A DNA stretch of 64,000 nt. Source: Actinomadura sp. 6K520. Its GTDB lineage: Bacteria; Actinomycetota; Actinomycetes; Streptosporangiales; Streptosporangiaceae. This document shows, piece after piece, positions 41,104-49,775 of the stretch (its first letter is position 1; each line of letters opens with the position of its first letter). The notes under the pieces are model-generated. The model did not search any database. It was not told where the DNA came from and saw only the letters and a list, made by a program, of their open reading frames with translations. The position numbers and the translations under genes were made by a program. Location of the stretch: NCBI RefSeq assembly GCF_004349245.1, contig NZ_SMLC01000003.1, forward strand, positions 62,001-126,000, written 5' to 3'.

Positions 41104-41575
41104 GGGTCTCCTCCTTGGGGAGCCGCGCCGAGCGGAAAACTGCGGCGCATTTTCTGCATGCGGCGGCAGACCGAAGTGTGAGGATTTCACGGATGATTCC
41201 GCGGCAATGCGGAAACGGTCGGCCGCGACGCCCCACACAGTGAACGACCCTCGATGTGATGTCAATTGTGCCTCGGCACAATTGCGCGTCGCGGACCGGT
41301 GAGCAGTAATTACGCCGAAACAACGGGAAGAAGACTGGTGATTTCGCCGATGTCACTGGCGGGGAGGGGCGGAGGGGGCGCGGACGCGGTGGCGCCGCCT
41401 CCCGCCGGCGCGCCGTCCGCCGAACGCCGTCCGGGCCGGCGCCTCGTCGGCTCCGGGTGTTGTGAACGGCGTCATCTCACCGACTCGCCACAAGTCGGCG
41501 CACTCGGTGAACCTTGGTGGCTAGGCTCTGTAGGCCGGGGCGCGGGCCCCGCGATCCGCGAGGGGGAGTGCGCAG
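41104..41575. other. 472-bp divergent intergenic region
   Basis: No gene seen; open frames that cross it are shadows of the biotin carboxylase gene and its antisense. GC is lower around 41140-41330. It holds the promoters of the secreted copper-protein operon (leftward) and the carboxylase-BsaP gene (rightward), and one 22-bp perfect dyad (41263-41284). Confidence 0.6.
41263..41284. promoter_or_regulatory. Perfect 10-bp-arm operator-like dyad
   Basis: CAATTGTGCC (41263-41272) and GGCACAATTG (41275-41284) are perfect inverted arms with a 2-nt centre. It lies 160 bases before the secreted-protein start and 290 before the carboxylase gene. It looks like a site for a dimeric regulator; the factor is unknown. 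Confidence 0.55.
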
Positions 41576-43114
41576 GTGTTCGAGTCCGTGCTCGTGGCGA
41601 ACCGCGGCGAGATCGCCGGCCGGATCATCCACACGGCGCGCGCGATGGGCATCAAGACCATCGCGGTGTACTCCGACGCCGACGCCGACCTGCCGTTCGT
41701 GGCGGAGGCGGACGAGGCCGTCCTGCTCGGCCCCGCCGACCCCGCGCGCAGCTACCTGAACGTCCCCGCGGTCCTGGAGGCCGCGCGCCGGACGAACGCG
41801 CAGGCCGTCCACCCCGGCTACGGTTTCCTCGCCGAGAGCGCCGCGTTCGCCCGTGCGGTCACCGACCACGGCCGCGTCTGGGTCGGGCCGCCGCCGCTCG
41901 TCATCGCCCGGATGAGCGACAAGATCAACGCGCGGAACCTGATGAAGGAGGCGGGCGTCCCCGTCGCGCCCGGCGTGTGGGAGCCCGTTCCCGACGCCGG
42001 CACGGCGGTCGAGGAGGCCCGGCGCATCGGCTACCCGGTGATGGTCAAACCCGCCGCGGGCGCCGGCGGCGTCGGCATGGCCGCCGCCCGCGACGAGGCG
42101 ACGCTGCGCGCGGCGTACGAGGCGGCCCGCACCGGCGCCGCCCGCCTGTTCGGGCAGGACGACATCCTCCTCGAACGCCACGTGGACGGCGCCCGGCACG
42201 TCGAGGTGCAGATCCTCGGCCTGAACGACGGCACCGTCGTGACGCTCGGCGACCGGGACTGCTCCGTCCAGCGCCGCTACCAGAAGGTCGTGGAGGAGGC
42301 CCCGTCGCCCGGCGTCCCCCCGGCGCTGCGCGAGCGGATGCTCGCCGCCGCCGTCCGCGCGGGCGAGGCGGTCGGCTACCGCGGCGCGGGCACCGTCGAG
42401 TTCCTCGTGGACCCCGCGGCGCAGGAGTTCTTCTTCCTGGAGCTGAGCACCCGCCTCCAGGTGGAGCACGCCGTGACCGAGCTGGTCACCGGCATCGACC
42501 TGGTCGAATGGCAGTTCCGCATCGCCGCGGGCGAGCCCGGCCCGTCCGCCGTCCCCGCGCCGCGGGGCCACGCCGTCGAGTTCCGCGTCTACGCCGAGGA
42601 CCCGCAGCGGTTCCTGCCCGTGCCCGGCGACATCAAGGTGTGGGAGGAGCCCGTCGGCGACGGCATCCGCATCGACGCCGGCTACGTCGAGGGCGACACC
42701 GTCACGCCCCACTACGCGATGCTGCTCGCCAAACTGTGCGTCCACGGCGACGACCGCGGACACGCGCTGAGCCGGGCCAGGGCCGCCCTCGACGCGTTCC
42801 GCATCGAGGGGCTCCCGACCAACCTGCCCTTCCTGCGGGAACTGCTCGACCGTCCCGAATTCGCGGGCGGCGCCTACGACACCGGGCTGGTGGCGCGCAT
42901 GCGCGGCGCCCCGCCGGTGGGCGGCGCCTACTGCGACAGGTGCGGGGAGCCCGCCGCCGGGCGCGACCACGGCGCGTGCCGCGAGGCCCGCCGGATGGAG
43001 CCGCCGCGCTACTGCCCGCACTGCCGCCGCCGCCTGGTCGTCCAGGTCACGCCCCTGGGCTGGACGGCCCGCTGCTCCGAGCACGGTGACCTGGAGCCGG
43101 ACCCCGGTCGCTAG
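41576..43114 (+). CDS. Biotin carboxylase fused to BsaP-like domain
   Basis: 512 residues. Residues 1-442 are a biotin carboxylase ([17 protein letters not shown]; Gly-rich ATP loop [47 protein letters not shown]) of normal length. Residues about 450-512 are a second module, YCDRCGEP...HGAC...[29 protein letters not shown], with Cys453, 456, 468, 480, 483 and 500. This matches my memory of BsaP, the small protein that supports biotin synthase in actinobacteria. GTG start with GGGGGAG upstream. No stop or ribosome site separates the modules. No biotinyl domain is present. Confidence 0.8.
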   Translation: [512 protein letters not shown]

Positions 43115-43632
43115 AACACCAGGACGTAGGTGAGCAGGAGCTTCACGCCGGGTGCGGGGACCCAGTCGCGGTCGGGGGTGCGGACGAACCCCATCCGCTC
43201 GTACATGCGCTGTGCACCGACCATGTTCGCCTGGGTCGACAGGCGCAGGCCGCGGAGTCCCGCCGCGCGGGCGCGGCCGACGCACGCCCGCACCATGGCG
43301 GTGCCCGCGCCCAGGCCGCGTGCCTTCTCCCGGACGGCGAGCATGCGGAACTCGGCCTCGTCCGGCCCGGCGATCTGGACGTAGGGGCTGCCGGGCCCGC
43401 AGTAGGCGACCGCCCCGACGACCTCGCCCCCGGACTCGGCGACGAGCAGGTCGGCCCGGGCGGCGCGGTCGGCGGCGTCCCGGAGCGTGCCGACGTAGGA
43501 GGACGTGGGCGACACCAGGCCGCCGTCCACGTAGACCTCCACGGTGAGGTCGCCGACCAGCTCGTACTCGTCCGGGCGGGCCGGGCGGACGGTGACCGGC
43601 CCGGAAGCCGGCTCGGAGAGCGGCTCAGACAC
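43111..43632 (-). CDS. GNAT-family acetyltransferase
   Basis: 173 residues with the GNAT core: VTVRPARPDEYELVGDL, the acetyl-CoA loop AVREKARGLGAGTAMVRACV (R-G-x-G-A) and the NMVGAQRMYERMGFVR C-terminal motif. The GTG start lies 8 bp inside the end of the ThDP enzyme gene upstream on this strand, so the two are co-transcribed. The 3' end overlaps the convergent carboxylase gene by 4 bp. The acetyl acceptor is unknown. Confidence 0.9.
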   Translation of the reverse strand: MSEPLSEPASGPVTVRPARPDEYELVGDLTVEVYVDGGLVSPTSSYVGTLRDAADRAARADLLVAESGGEVVGAVAYCGPGSPYVQIAGPDEAEFRMLAVREKARGLGAGTAMVRACVGRARAAGLRGLRLSTQANMVGAQRMYERMGFVRTPDRDWVPAPGVKLLLTYVLVF

Positions 43633-45298
43633 CGGTGGTCTTGCGGGGGTAGGAGACGTCCGGGTCGGTGGCGACGTTGACCAGGTACGGGACGCCCGAG
43701 TCGAACGCGCGGCGCAGCGCCGGCCCGATCTCGTCCGGGCGGGTGACGAGCTCCCCGGCGCCGCCGAGCGCCCGGACGACCTCGTCGTAGCGGCAGTGCG
43801 GCCGCAGCTCGGCGGCCACGTCGTAGCCGTACAGCATGCGCATCGGGTGCTTCTCCAGACCCCAGGAGCCGTTGTTGCCCACCACCATCACGACCGGCAG
43901 GCCGTGCCGCACCAGGCTATCGGCGTCCATGAGCGACAGCCCCGCGGCGCCGTCGCCGAGCAGCAGCACCACCTGCGCGGCGGGGCGGGCGAGGCGCGCG
44001 GCGATCGCGTAGCCGAGCCCGGTGCCGAGGCACCCGTACGGGCCGGGGTCGAGCCAGCGGCCGGGGCGCCGCGGCTCGATGTACTTGCCCGCGTACGAGA
44101 CGAAGTCGCCGCCGTCCCCGATCACCACGGCGTCGTCGTCGAGGACCTTGGACAGCTCCCCGTAGATCCGCAGCGGATGGATCGGGTCGGCGCCGGACGC
44201 GAGCAGGTCGATGTCGCCGGCGATGGCCGCGTAGGTGGCGTCGCGCAGGCTCTCCCGCCAGTCCCCGTACGTGCCCGGGGACACCCCCGCCTTCGCGCAG
44301 GCGGCGGTGAGGTCGGTGAACAGCAGGGACAGGTCCCCGGCCGCGGAGCCCGCCGGGCGGAGGTGCGGTACCAGCTGCGAGGGCGCGTCCGCGAGATGGA
44401 CGACCTTGGCGGTCCCGTCGCCGAACGAACCGTAGCCCAGGCGGAAGTCGAGCGGCGTCCCCGCGACGATGACGAGGTCGGCGTCCGCGAACGCGGCGCC
44501 CCTGGCGCGGGTGACGAGCAGGTCGTGCCCGGCGGGCAGGATGCCGCGCCCCTGCCCGTTGGCGACCACGGGCAGCCGCAGCTCCTCGGCGAACGCGCGG
44601 GCGGCCTCCTCGGCGCCGTCCATCCACACGTCCGAGCCGAGCACGAGGACGGGACGCCGCGCCGCCTTCAGCAGCTCGGCGACGCGGGCGAGCCGCTCCG
44701 GATCGGCGGGCCGCTCCGGCGGGTCGGGGATCTGCCCGGCGCGGGCCGGTCCGGCGGGGCCGAACAGGTGGTCCATGTGGACGTCGAGGAACACCGGGCC
44801 GCGGTGCGGGGCGGCGGCGGTCGTGAAGGCGCGGGCGAGGTCGGAGGCCAGCGTGTCCGGCCCGGTGGCGGTCATCGCCAGCTTGGTGACGGGCGCCAGC
44901 AGCGGCGGCTGGTCGAGTTCCTGCAGCGCGCCCGCGCCCCACCGGCCGAGCGGGGCGCGGCCGCCGAGCACGACGACCGGCGACCCGTTGAAGTGGGCGG
45001 TCGTGACGCCGCTGATGCCGTTGGTGACGCCCGGCCCGGCCGTCAGCACGGCCAGCCCCGTACGGCGGGTGAGCCGCGCCGTGGCCTCCGCCGCGAACAC
45101 GGCGGTCTGCTCGTGCCGGACGTCGAGGATGCGGGGGTCGGCCTCCGTCCCCGGCACGGTGCCGGTCCGCCCGCCGGTCTCGCCGACCGCGCCGTCGTAG
45201 AGCGGGAAGACGTGCCCGCCCGACAGCGTGAACATCGTTTCGACGCCGTGCCTGCGGATCTCCGCGATCGCCGTGTCACCACCGTGCCGAGCCGTCAT
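43625..45298 (-). CDS. Thiamine-diphosphate enzyme, acetolactate-synthase-like
   Basis: 557 residues with the three domains of the AHAS/oxalyl-CoA decarboxylase superfamily: a PYR domain with the catalytic Glu in RHEQTAVFAAEATARLT, a central domain (RRPVLVLGSDVWMDGA) and a PP domain with LLLGDGAAGLSLMDADSLVRHGLPVVMVVGNNGSWG (split; GDG...NN ThDP motif). No regulatory subunit is nearby, so it is probably not the biosynthetic IlvB. The start ATG is probably leaderless: a TACGGT -10 box lies six bases upstream, and next to it a TetR-type palindrome. Confidence 0.87.
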   Translation of the reverse strand: MTARHGGDTAIAEIRRHGVETMFTLSGGHVFPLYDGAVGETGGRTGTVPGTEADPRILDVRHEQTAVFAAEATARLTRRTGLAVLTAGPGVTNGISGVTTAHFNGSPVVVLGGRAPLGRWGAGALQELDQPPLLAPVTKLAMTATGPDTLASDLARAFTTAAAPHRGPVFLDVHMDHLFGPAGPARAGQIPDPPERPADPERLARVAELLKAARRPVLVLGSDVWMDGAEEAARAFAEELRLPVVANGQGRGILPAGHDLLVTRARGAAFADADLVIVAGTPLDFRLGYGSFGDGTAKVVHLADAPSQLVPHLRPAGSAAGDLSLLFTDLTAACAKAGVSPGTYGDWRESLRDATYAAIAGDIDLLASGADPIHPLRIYGELSKVLDDDAVVIGDGGDFVSYAGKYIEPRRPGRWLDPGPYGCLGTGLGYAIAARLARPAAQVVLLLGDGAAGLSLMDADSLVRHGLPVVMVVGNNGSWGLEKHPMRMLYGYDVAAELRPHCRYDEVVRALGGAGELVTRPDEIGPALRRAFDSGVPYLVNVATDPDVSYPRKTTGV

Positions 45299-45304
45299 GC
45301 ACGC

Positions 45305-45310
45305 ACCGTA
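45305..45310 (-). promoter_or_regulatory. -10 box for leaderless ThDP-enzyme mRNA
   Basis: TACGGT on the minus strand, six bases before the ATG at 45298, which would place the transcription start at the start codon. No ribosome site is present, in keeping with a leaderless transcript. Confidence 0.45.
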
Positions 45311-45311
45311 A

Positions 45312-45325
45312 CAAGCGAGCGCTTG
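45312..45325. promoter_or_regulatory. TetR-type operator palindrome
   Basis: CAAGCG and CGCTTG flank AG in a perfect 14-bp palindrome directly upstream of the -10 box of the ThDP-enzyme gene. A bound repressor would block the promoter. No TetR gene is adjacent, so the regulator would act from elsewhere. Confidence 0.55.
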
Positions 45326-45407
45326 CCCGCACAGTAGTCGTTAGGGTCTTGACGACGTCTGGGCGGACCATGTTGATTGGCGGGAGGCCGACCCCCGGAG
45401 GTGCCCG

Positions 45408-47084
45408 ATGCCGGTCCCGCGTTCGATCCTTGCCAGGCAGGACCTCACCGACCTGGACCTGGACGTCGTCGCCGGAGCGTGGCCGGACGACGTCCGCGGG
45501 CACTTCGTCGTGAGCACCTCCGACCAGCGGACCCGCCCACTGCACGCGTTCTTCGGCGACGGGATCATGGCCAGGCTGTCGCTCACCGCCGGTACCGACG
45601 GCGCGCCCCCCGGCCGGTTCGCCTGGCGCGCCCGCGTCCTCGACACCCCGTCGGTCCGGCTGCGCCGCAAGCGCCCCGACCTGTTCACCGCCGGGCCGGT
45701 CGGCACCGGCTCGCCCTGGGGGTTCGTCAACGCCGCCAACACCGCGCCACTGCCGTGGGGCGACCGGCTCTTCGCCACCTGGGACGCCGGCCGCCCGGTG
45801 GAGGTCGACCCCGTGACCCTGCGGTTCGTCGCCGAGGTCGGGCACCGCGACGACTGGAAACCCGCCATGGACCAGGCCGTCCTGCCGCTCGTCTCGACCA
45901 CCGCCCACCCGGTGGTGGACCCCGAGCGCGACTGCCTGTGGAGCATCAGCCGCGACGTGCTGACCGGCGCCGTCTCCGTCATCGGGTACGACGGGAAGGG
46001 ACCGCGCGTCCGGCGCTGGGAGGTCGAGGGCGCGGTGCTGCCGCAGGCCACGCACACCATCACCCAGACCCGCGACTGGCTCGTCCTCGCCGACACCGCC
46101 TACAAGATCGACCCCGAGGAGGTCTTCGGCGGGGAGCGGACCACCGCGAACAACCCCGACGGGCCCGTGCTGCTCATCCGCAAGGACGACCTCACCCCGG
46201 GGCGCGAAAGCGTCACCTGCAAGCAGTTCCGCATAGCCCCCGAGGTCAACCACTTCTACGCCCGCTACGACGACTCCGACGGCGTCCAGGTCGTGATGGA
46301 GCACAGCGAAGGCGTGGACATCGGAATGTACCTGCGCGAGGACGACATAGACGTCTACGGACGGCCGATCGACCCCGCCCTGCGCGGCATGTACTGCCAC
46401 GGCATGACGCCCGCGCTCACCACCGTCCTGCAGTTCGACCCGGAGAGCGGCCAGGTGCGGGAGCGTGCACGTGCCAGCGACCCGGAGCGGTGGTGGCAGG
46501 CCGAGCTGTCCGCCATCGACTGGAGCATCGAGGGCCAGACCGACCCAACCCGGCACCACCTCATCTACCTGGGCTTCCACCCCGAGGCCATCAACCAGCG
46601 GGCCCTGCGCAACTACGAGGGCCGCGTAGACCCCTCGCTGTTCCCCGCGGAGGAGACCCCGGCCGTCCTCGTCACCCACGACCGCGAAGACCTCAAGGCC
46701 CTGTCCGAATGGACGTTCGCACTGGACGACTACCCGACGTCCCCGTCGTTCGTTCCACGCGGCCGGGGCGGCAGCCGCTACGCGGGCACGAACCCCGGCG
46801 GGCACGAGGGATACCTGGTCGTGGCCGTCCACAACGACGACCGGTTCCGCGTGGAGCTGTTCGACGCCTCCGACGTGGGGCGCGGCCCCATCGCCGTACT
46901 GGCCCCGCCCAACGGCACGACAATGCCGTTCCTGATCCACTCGGCGTGGATGCCCGAAGCCCGCCCGGCCCCCGACCTGGAGCGCCACCGCTTCGCCGAC
47001 GACCTGGACGCCCGCCTCGACCAACTGGACCCCGACCTCGCCGCCACGGCCCGCGAGGTCGCCGCCGACCTCGACGCCCGCTAG
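45408..47084 (+). CDS. Carotenoid oxygenase (CCD/RPE65 family)
   Basis: 558 residues, a beta-propeller Fe(II) dioxygenase. Four histidine-bearing motifs expected for iron binding are seen: STTAHPVVD, LPQATHTITQTRDW, EVNHFYARYDD and MPFLIHSAWMP. CCDs cleave double bonds of carotenoids, apocarotenoids or stilbenes. No carotenoid biosynthetic genes are in the window, so the substrate is open. GGAGG precedes the ATG by about six bases. Divergent from the ThDP-enzyme gene. Confidence 0.88.
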   Translation: MPVPRSILARQDLTDLDLDVVAGAWPDDVRGHFVVSTSDQRTRPLHAFFGDGIMARLSLTAGTDGAPPGRFAWRARVLDTPSVRLRRKRPDLFTAGPVGTGSPWGFVNAANTAPLPWGDRLFATWDAGRPVEVDPVTLRFVAEVGHRDDWKPAMDQAVLPLVSTTAHPVVDPERDCLWSISRDVLTGAVSVIGYDGKGPRVRRWEVEGAVLPQATHTITQTRDWLVLADTAYKIDPEEVFGGERTTANNPDGPVLLIRKDDLTPGRESVTCKQFRIAPEVNHFYARYDDSDGVQVVMEHSEGVDIGMYLREDDIDVYGRPIDPALRGMYCHGMTPALTTVLQFDPESGQVRERARASDPERWWQAELSAIDWSIEGQTDPTRHHLIYLGFHPEAINQRALRNYEGRVDPSLFPAEETPAVLVTHDREDLKALSEWTFALDDYPTSPSFVPRGRGGSRYAGTNPGGHEGYLVVAVHNDDRFRVELFDASDVGRGPIAVLAPPNGTTMPFLIHSAWMPEARPAPDLERHRFADDLDARLDQLDPDLAATAREVAADLDAR

Positions 47085-48050: not shown

Positions 48051-48776
48051 GTGAGTGTGCTCGTGGTCACCGGGACGTGTACGGGCGTGGGCAAGACCGT
48101 CGTCACCGCGGCGCTGGCCGCGGTCGCCGCCACGCGCGACGCGTCCGTCGCCGTCGTCAAACCCGGGCAGACCGGCGTCCGCGCCGGCGAGCCCGGCGAC
48201 CTCGACGCGGTCCGGCGCCTCGCGGGCCTCGACGACGTCCACGAGTTCGCCCGCTTCCCCGACCCGCTGTCGCCCGCCGCCGCGGCCCGCCGCGCCGGCG
48301 TCCCGCCCGTCCGGCTGCCGGAGGTGGCCGAGCGCGTCCGGGACCTGTCCGGCGACCGGCGGCTGGTGCTGATCGAGGGCGCGGGCGGCCTCCTCGTCCG
48401 CTACGACGACGAGGGCAACACGATCGCGGACCTCGCCCGCTGGCTGGGCGCCGCCGCCGTCGTCGTGACCCGCCCCGGCCTCGGCACCCTCAACCACACC
48501 GCCCTCACGCTGGAGGCGATGGCGCACCGCGGCGTGCAGCTCGCCGGCGTCGTCATCGGCGAGTGGCCGGCCGACCCCGACCTCGCGATGCGCAGCAACA
48601 TCCGCGACCTGGAGACCATCGCGGCCCGGCCGCTGGCGGGCGCGCTGCCCGCGGGCGCGGGCGCGCTGGACCCGGCGGAGTTCCTCCTGGCCGCGCACCG
48701 CGGCCTGGCCCCCTCGTTCGGCGGCGCCTTCGACGCCGCCGCCTTCCGCGACACCTTCGGCCCCGACAAGGAGTAG
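48051..48776 (+). CDS. bioD: Dethiobiotin synthetase
   Basis: 241 residues. P-loop GTCTGVGKT at the N-terminus, the substrate-carbamate region VKPGQTG, and LIEGAGGLLVRYDDEGNTIADLA. The enzyme makes dethiobiotin from 7,8-diaminopelargonate, CO2 and ATP. It is three bases from bioB, with which it forms an operon. bioF lies 3 kb away on the other strand, and bioA is not in the window. The GTG start is probably leaderless. Confidence 0.93.
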   Translation: MSVLVVTGTCTGVGKTVVTAALAAVAATRDASVAVVKPGQTGVRAGEPGDLDAVRRLAGLDDVHEFARFPDPLSPAAAARRAGVPPVRLPEVAERVRDLSGDRRLVLIEGAGGLLVRYDDEGNTIADLARWLGAAAVVVTRPGLGTLNHTALTLEAMAHRGVQLAGVVIGEWPADPDLAMRSNIRDLETIAARPLAGALPAGAGALDPAEFLLAAHRGLAPSFGGAFDAAAFRDTFGPDKE

Positions 48777-48779
48777 GAC

Positions 48780-49775
48780 GTGACAGACATCCTCGACGTA
48801 GCCCGCCGCCAGGTGCTGGACGAGGGCAGGGGCCTGTCCGCCGGCCAGGTCCTCGAATGCCTGACCCTCCCCGACGACCGGCTGGAGGACCTGCTCGCGC
48901 TCGCCCACGAGGTCCGGATGCGCTGGTGCGGGCCGGAGGTCGAGGTCGAGGGGATCGTGTCGCTGAAGACCGGCGGCTGCCCGGAGGACTGCCACTTCTG
49001 CTCGCAGTCCGGCAAGTTCGAGTCGCCCGTCCGCGCGGTGTGGCTGAACATCCCCCAGCTGGTCGAGGCGGCGAAGGAGACCGCGAAGACCGGCGCGACC
49101 GAGTTCTGCATCGTCGCGGCCGTCCGCGGCCCCGACGAACGCCTCATGGCACAGGTCCGCGACGGCATCAGGGCCATCAACGACGCCGTCGAGATCAACA
49201 TCGCGTGCTCGCTCGGGATGCTCACCCAGGAGCAGGTGGACGAACTGACCGCGATGGGCGTCCACCGCTACAACCACAACCTGGAGACGGCCCGCTCCCA
49301 CTTCCCGAACGTGGTCACCACCCACTCGTGGGAGGAGCGCTGGGAGACCCTCCGCATGGTCAAGGAGGCCGGAATGGAGGTGTGCTGCGGCGGCATCGTC
49401 GGGATGGGCGAGACCATCGAGCAGCGCGCCGAGTTCGCCGGCCAGCTCGCCGAGCTGGAGCCCGACGAGGTTCCGCTGAACTTCCTGGCGCCCCGCCCCG
49501 GCACCCCGTTCGCCGACCTCCCGCTGGTCGAGGGCACGGAGGCGCTGAAGACGATCGCCGCGTTCCGCCTCGCCCTGCCCCGCACCATCCTCCGCTACGC
49601 CGGAGGCCGCGAACTCACCCTCGGCGACCTCGGCACCCGCGAAGGCATGCTCGGCGGCATCAACGCCATCATCGTCGGCAACTACCTGACCACCCTGGGC
49701 CGCCCGGCGGAGCAGGACCTCGAACTCCTCACAGACCTACAAATGCCCATCAAGGCCCTAAGTCAGACCCTGTAG
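48780..49775 (+). CDS. bioB: Biotin synthase
   Basis: 331 residues. The radical SAM cluster is C67-x3-C71-x2-C74 in [20 protein letters not shown]. Further conserved cysteines (IACSLG, EVCCGGI) supply the auxiliary cluster that donates sulfur to dethiobiotin. The SAM-binding [28 protein letters not shown] region is present in two parts. In mycobacteria this type of BioB depends on the small protein BsaP, often encoded next to it; here no bsaP follows, and the only BsaP-like module is fused to the carboxylase at 41.6 kb. Confidence 0.96.

Follow-up and report, generated by a model that had tools for sequence, protein, structure and literature searches.

The window, by which we mean the whole stretch of 64,000 nucleotides of Actinomadura sp. 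6K520 DNA analyzed here, contains a gene that joins a biotin carboxylase (BC) to a domain resembling BsaP. What does this domain do, why is it attached to a carboxylase, and how did the two come together? A BsaP is defined by being needed for the conversion of dethiobiotin to biotin and by binding iron or an Fe-S cluster. It was described in 2024 as the biotin synthase auxiliary protein, Rv1590, and the conserved cysteines of the M. tuberculosis protein are Cys44, Cys47, and Cys64 (PMC11099021, in the passages on this protein). The features of the window that concern us here are as follows.

41576-43114, + strand: BC-BsaP fusion gene, a single open frame of 512 codons with a GTG start
41576..42901, + strand: BC part, codons 1-442, assigned from Pfam domains and residue comparison with E. 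coli AccC
42902..42928, + strand: linker of 9 codons from the BC end to the BsaP match
42929..43087, + strand: BsaP domain, codons 452-504, with the pattern YCxxC...HxxC...YCxxC...RC and six cysteines, assigned from the NF052237 match
43112..43114, + strand: stop codon TAG of the fusion frame
48051..48776, + strand: bioD, with a GTG start picked by eye before the P-loop GTCTGVGKT (first start of the ORF caller, 47724)
48780..49775, + strand: bioB, of the BsaP-dependent type by its replacements relative to E. coli BioB, with no bsaP behind it

A carboxylase and BsaP in one open frame

The sequence GAGGGGGAG is located 7 nt 5′ of the GTG start of the fusion gene. Using hmmscan, we found Biotin_carb_N, the ATP-grasp domain, and Biotin_carb_C (PF00289, PF02786, and PF02785) over residues 1 to 440 of the fusion, and the BsaP family of NCBIfam (NF052237) over residues 452 to 504 of the full protein, with 85.4 bits (E value, 1.8e-24; cut-off, 39). 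The fused module matched this profile over its full length (1 to 53), and the C-terminal piece alone scored 90.4 bits against the same cut-off. These scores bear out the first-pass annotation, which had described a single uninterrupted frame composed of a full-length BC and a six-cysteine BsaP-like module. The six cysteines were invariant in an alignment of 29 sequences from Actinomadura and its relatives, a set to which M. tuberculosis BsaP itself does not belong. A PDB sequence search with the BsaP profile returned no match up to an E value of 10, and a scan of 41300 to 43200 for the sigma-70 consensus gave none.

The first-pass annotation had also suggested looking for BsaP in the rest of the genome and for the same architecture in others. 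A profile search of the whole genome (G000; 8.19 Mb in 445 contigs, 97.2% complete) placed only the fusion above the cut-off, the runner-up match scoring 17.4 bits; a separate bsaP was not found in this assembly, which at such completeness might still lack a second copy. We then surveyed 65 Actinomadura genomes, taking the region around each BsaP match and following the frame of the BC. BsaP was matched in 56 of the 65, our genome counted, and BC and BsaP shared one frame in 3 of these 56, G000 included. The other two are A. livida JCM 3387 (G216) and a genome assembled as a single contig of 6.7 Mb (G085). The latter likewise shows only the fused BsaP, and its BC is 88% identical to that of G000. 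Because the fusion recurs in these two genomes, one of them a one-contig assembly, an artefact of assembly is a very unlikely source of it, and we rejected both chance and a sequencing or assembly error that removed a stop codon.

Several other large frames were considered as fusions and discarded. BsaP was part of a frame of more than 450 codons at 12 loci of the genus (G241, G235, G237, G239, G214, G210, G174, G220, G085, G216, G000, and G227), and only G000, G085, and G216 proved to be true fusions when the BC frame was followed. In G174, the BC has its own stop and is followed by the carrier gene BCCP and then by bsaP. The 420-codon frame of G179 differs from the BC frame.

BsaP and the type of biotin synthase

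In an alignment with E. coli BioB, the BioB encoded in the window shows the replacements S43E, R95E, C128A, Y149R, and S218E and retains C53, C57, C60, C97, C188, and R260 (E. coli numbering). The same five replacements are reported for BsaP-associated BioB in the part of PMC11099021 that treats these enzymes. Downstream of the fusion, bioD begins 4.9 kb away and bioB 5.7 kb away. The observation of the first-pass annotation that this bioB has no adjoining bsaP was correct, as the genome-wide BsaP search shows none behind it. The fused module thus resembles Rv1590 in its full-length match to NF052237, its conserved cysteines, and an accompanying BioB that carries the BsaP-associated replacements, and differs from it in being joined to a BC and in lying 5.7 kb from bioB instead of adjoining it. 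Adjacency is not strictly defining; in the account of gene order in PMC11099021, most, not all, bsaP genes are downstream of bioB.

A BioB 86 to 100% identical to that of the window accompanies BsaP in 55 of 56 genomes, and it was not detected in any of the nine genomes without BsaP (Fisher's P of 3e-10 for the 65 genomes, a value that is not corrected for relatedness). Among the 55 we counted G245, in which the gene is split across two contigs. The sole miss was G239, a draft of about 670 contigs that has BsaP and in which no BioB match was detected at an E value of 1e-30. In the nine genomes without BsaP (L279 to L287), only a BioB paralogue with 37 to 38% identity was found. In all nine, this paralogue shares R95, C128, and S218 with the E. 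coli enzyme and has N at position 43 and A at position 149; these genomes appear to represent a natural replacement of the BsaP-dependent synthase by an E. coli-like BioB. The 37 to 38% paralogue is present additionally in 16 of the 55 genomes with the BsaP-type enzyme. Each of the three fused genomes has one BioB match, and it is of the BsaP type. The genus therefore provides a natural genetic test of the role of BsaP: its genomes have either BsaP and a BsaP-type BioB, or show neither of these and have an E. coli-like BioB, with one draft as the exception.

Between G000 and G085, dN/dS was 0.35 for BsaP, 0.37 for the BC, and 0.18 for BioB; between G000 and G216, the value for BsaP was 0.41, calculated from few sites. 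Because the fused module is the only BsaP found, a BsaP-type BioB is present, and BsaP and this BioB co-occur, the module is very probably a working BsaP. We infer that it binds and activates BioB and that BsaP is made only as the fusion.

The neighbors of bsaP and the state of the carboxylase

To place the fusion in context, we compared bsaP loci in the phylum, the family, and the genus. A phylum sample of 396 genomes contained 36 with BsaP, our own included, and 29 of the 35 other loci were inspected. Outside the family of the window, bsaP was directly behind bioB on the same strand at 29 of 29 inspected loci, and a BioB-BsaP fusion was seen at none of the 29 phylum-sample loci. Among 200 genomes of the window's family (Streptosporangiaceae), 96 had a BsaP match, again counting our own. 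At the best 30 of these 96 loci, a BC was present within 1.5 kb in all 30 (two as short partial matches) and a BCCP in 26; nine of the 30 loci belong to the genus, and at three of the 30, bsaP and the BC-BCCP pair face each other. A further 40 family loci outside the genus had BCCP in 39 cases and BC in 33, with bsaP on the opposite strand in two of the 39. With G179 (L038) added, we inspected 62 of the 85 family genomes that have a match and do not belong to the genus. Within the genus, bsaP is downstream of the BC on the same strand in all 56 genomes that have it. The BsaP match begins less than 600 nt from the BC stop at 52 of the 53 unfused loci, with BCCP between the two genes in 9 of these; the sole exception is G213, at 1.8 kb. 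The BCCP that lies between BC and bsaP at most inspected family loci is a small protein of about 70 residues with the motif ESMKMEIPV, which we take to be TB7.3-like; neither the window nor the rest of this genome yielded a match to it. In summary, bsaP, BC, and BCCP are neighbors at nearly all inspected family loci, and the fusion therefore joins long-standing neighbors. In a Micrococcales MAG (L198:5140-8191), a BC-BCCP pair faces bsaP-bioB, a possible intermediate of bsaP relocation.

The BC part of the fusion has the full domain set of an AccC-type enzyme and agrees with E. coli AccC at 18 of 21 checked positions, including K116, K159, K238, E276, E288, R292, Q294, V295, E296, and R338. 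It differs from such an enzyme in the replacements G164A, H236Y, and N290S, in its C-terminal BsaP, and in that no standalone BCCP was found in the genome. All three fused BCs carry G164A, N290S, and either Y or T in place of H236. In E. coli BC, the replacement N290A cuts activity 250-fold, according to the section of PMC8667948 on this variant. H236N is common in Micromonosporaceae homologues, and position 236 is therefore tolerant. By these comparisons the fused BC is probably weakened; it may retain activity, as K238, R292, Q294, V295, E296, and R338 are intact in all three proteins.

Such changes are frequent in the genus. At the 40 loci outside it, 30 BC genes are fully covered, and each of these has 21 of 21 checked positions intact; of three partial ones, two are short only of positions that are not covered, and the third (L275) is a fragment that differs. 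Within the genus, at least one checked position is replaced in 49 of 56 BC genes, the most changeable being 290, 295, 236, 164, and 294. Meanwhile, K116, K159, E201, H209, E276, and E288 are kept in 56 or 57 of 57 BCs (the 56 of the genus and L038). For the BC, 494 pairs within the genus had a median dN/dS of 0.42; the 8 pairs whose genes are near-intact had a median of 0.26, and 21 pairs from elsewhere in the family had one of 0.15 (in each set, the pairs share branches). Within the fused clade, the dN/dS of the BC was 0.32 to 0.42, well below 1. The small standalone BCCP was found in 10 of the 65 genus genomes and not found in the other 55, the three fused genomes among them; our own genome has BCCP-like stretches inside larger frames. 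Two or more BC replacements (at least two of the checked positions) were present at 4 of 9 loci with an adjoining BCCP versus 39 of 47 without (P of 0.02, not corrected for relatedness). All 65 genus genomes, including the nine without a BsaP match, have a BC match that runs the length of the gene and is not interrupted by stops.

We interpret this pattern as relaxed constraint on the BC in the genus, where the gene would nevertheless be kept for a reason independent of BsaP, since it persists in nine genomes in which neither BsaP nor the BsaP-type BioB was found. Judged from its sequence, the BC is not a mere passenger, because its dN/dS is below 1, its frame is open in 65 of 65 genomes, and the ATP-site residues are conserved in nearly all. 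Here a BC lineage appears to be retained even though the carrier and parts of the active site are being lost.

Two further observations concern these genes. Among the Actinomadura BC genes at L036, L037, L039 to L046, and L085 to L129, the carrier gene is mostly lost and residues of the biotin/bicarbonate site are repeatedly changed. In the BC of G174 (L037:6306-7661), 10 of 21 checked positions are replaced, including C230, Q233, K238, and E288, and the frame is still open.

A proposed route from separate genes to a fusion

A TANNNT sequence shortly before the start of a gene can mark a leaderless promoter in actinobacteria. Of 50 unfused bsaP genes, 35 have such a box, its end 6 to 8 nt ahead of the start codon (for example, at L103, L118, and L124), compared to 0.63 expected by shuffling. 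These 50 are the unfused genus genomes with a recognized bsaP start; three more unfused genomes had none recognized. The box looks like a candidate leaderless-type promoter of unfused bsaP. It is missing in 15 of the 50 genes, and in several of these a Shine-Dalgarno-like word takes its place; none of the three fused genes has the box at the old bsaP start. The unfused relatives probably begin bsaP with GTG or TTG. In the three that are nearest on the tree (G240, G237, and G238), the BC stop overlaps the bsaP start by four bases, GTGA or TTGA, and there is no TANNNT box. An ATGA overlap is present in G228, which belongs neither to the fused genomes nor to these three relatives. In the nearest unfused relative, A. 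sp. GC306 (G240), the overlap of BC stop and bsaP start is GTGA and the junction is one base shorter.

A BC tree built with FastTree gave (G085,(G240,(G216,G000))), with supports of 1.0, 0.993, and 0.866, and the four genomes form one clade with support of 1.0. The fused state is not fixed in this clade, as G240, closest to the pair G000-G216, is unfused. By our count, two histories would be equal at two steps each, namely, a single origin with a re-split in G240, or two origins. The junctions suggest a series that leads from a private promoter through overlap to fusion, a preserved set of candidate steps from separate genes to a joined one; the tree leaves the order of the last steps free, with G240 either ancestral or re-split.

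Taking the fusion, its uniqueness in the assembly, the co-occurrence, the gene order, the absence of the box, and the overlap as they stand in the DNA, we consider it likely that the gene is a chimera that arose by stepwise capture. Its C-terminal domain would be the only BsaP of the cell and would serve the biotin synthase of the BsaP-dependent type whose gene lies 5.7 kb away, and its N-terminal BC, orphaned, relaxed, and probably weakened, would be mainly a carrier for BsaP expression. According to this model, bsaP, which lies beside bioB in other Actinobacteria, would have come to sit by the BC-BCCP pair in the window's family, and BCCP would then have been lost by most Actinomadura. In the fused clade, bsaP is also without the leaderless-type box common in the genus. 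With the bsaP start overlapping the BC stop, as in the near relatives, a one-base difference would have brought both into frame.

The same frame could give rise to two proteins, the full fusion and a small BsaP, with the fusion being incidental. The closest candidate internal starts are the ATG at 42899-42901 and the GTG at 42917-42919. In favor of a second product, the old bsaP GTG is still in frame in G000 and G216, all three fused genes have an in-frame ATG near the BC end, and the unfused relatives probably start bsaP at GTG or TTG. However, the GTG is gone in G085, and neither a TANNNT box nor any of six Shine-Dalgarno-like words is present in the 24 nt preceding ATG 42899 and GTG 42917, or preceding the ATG and the fused GTGs in the three fused genes. 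ATG 42899 belongs to the BC end in all 12 loci compared. We regard internal initiation as unlikely. A further reading, also rather unlikely, concerns the carboxylase part: with its carrier lost and its biotin/bicarbonate site changed but its ATP site almost invariant, the BC of the genus might be a pseudo-carboxylase, or a new type of ATP-grasp enzyme acting on some as yet unknown acceptor, and in the fused clade its ATP-binding domain, tethered to BsaP, might position, load, or regulate the iron protein that activates biotin synthase.

The BC subunit of a carboxylase is not the biotinylated part; the carrier is BCCP. This bears on the proposal of the first-pass annotation that the fusion could match biotin supply to the needs of the carboxylase, or direct Fe-S repair to BioB, and on a variant in which Fe-S repair is tethered to a protein that uses biotin. 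The long proximity of bsaP and the BC-BCCP pair would suit such a coupling, and, if the origin was single, the fusion has outlasted the divergence of the G085 and G000 BCs to 88% identity. Nonetheless, the coupling of supply to demand was not supported: no standalone BCCP turned up in any of the three fused genomes, the subunit that is fused is the nonbiotinylated one, with an altered active site that includes N290S, and the BC is kept in nine genomes without BsaP or the BsaP-type BioB. The maintenance of a relaxed BC independently of BsaP therefore disfavors coupling, which, like the Fe-S variant, we consider improbable, and stepwise capture is the better reading. Similarly improbable is a neutral accident of frame in which neither part functions as a fusion and BsaP is decaying. 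The single base that separates the overlap in G240 from the fusion would make such an accident easy, but the fusion is found in three species with six invariant cysteines and dN/dS of 0.35 to 0.41 for BsaP, BioB is retained, and no other BsaP was found.

The chimera thus represents a truly new arrangement of domains for a known helper, confined to a small clade, with fusion of neighbors as its ordinary origin; how the genes came together step by step, and how the carboxylase decayed, is of more interest than the proposed metabolic coupling. Among the papers that our searches of the open-licence literature listed, we found no carboxylase-BsaP fusion and no BsaP in such a domain context, in line with the view of the first-pass annotation that the fusion is undescribed. 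The relevant passages of PMC12915131 mention BsaP and contain no BsaP fusion. A BioB-BsaP fusion in Pseudonocardia has been published (PMC11099021, in its passages on domain fusions). As far as these passages describe it, BsaP is a domain of a larger protein there as well, but is joined to its own enzyme, whereas here it is joined to a subunit of a biotin-dependent carboxylase.

The interval between the fusion and bioD-bioB (43111-47084 of the window) encodes three further enzymes, namely, a GNAT acetyltransferase, a TPP enzyme, and a carotenoid oxygenase of the RPE65 type, and these genes recur in several relatives.
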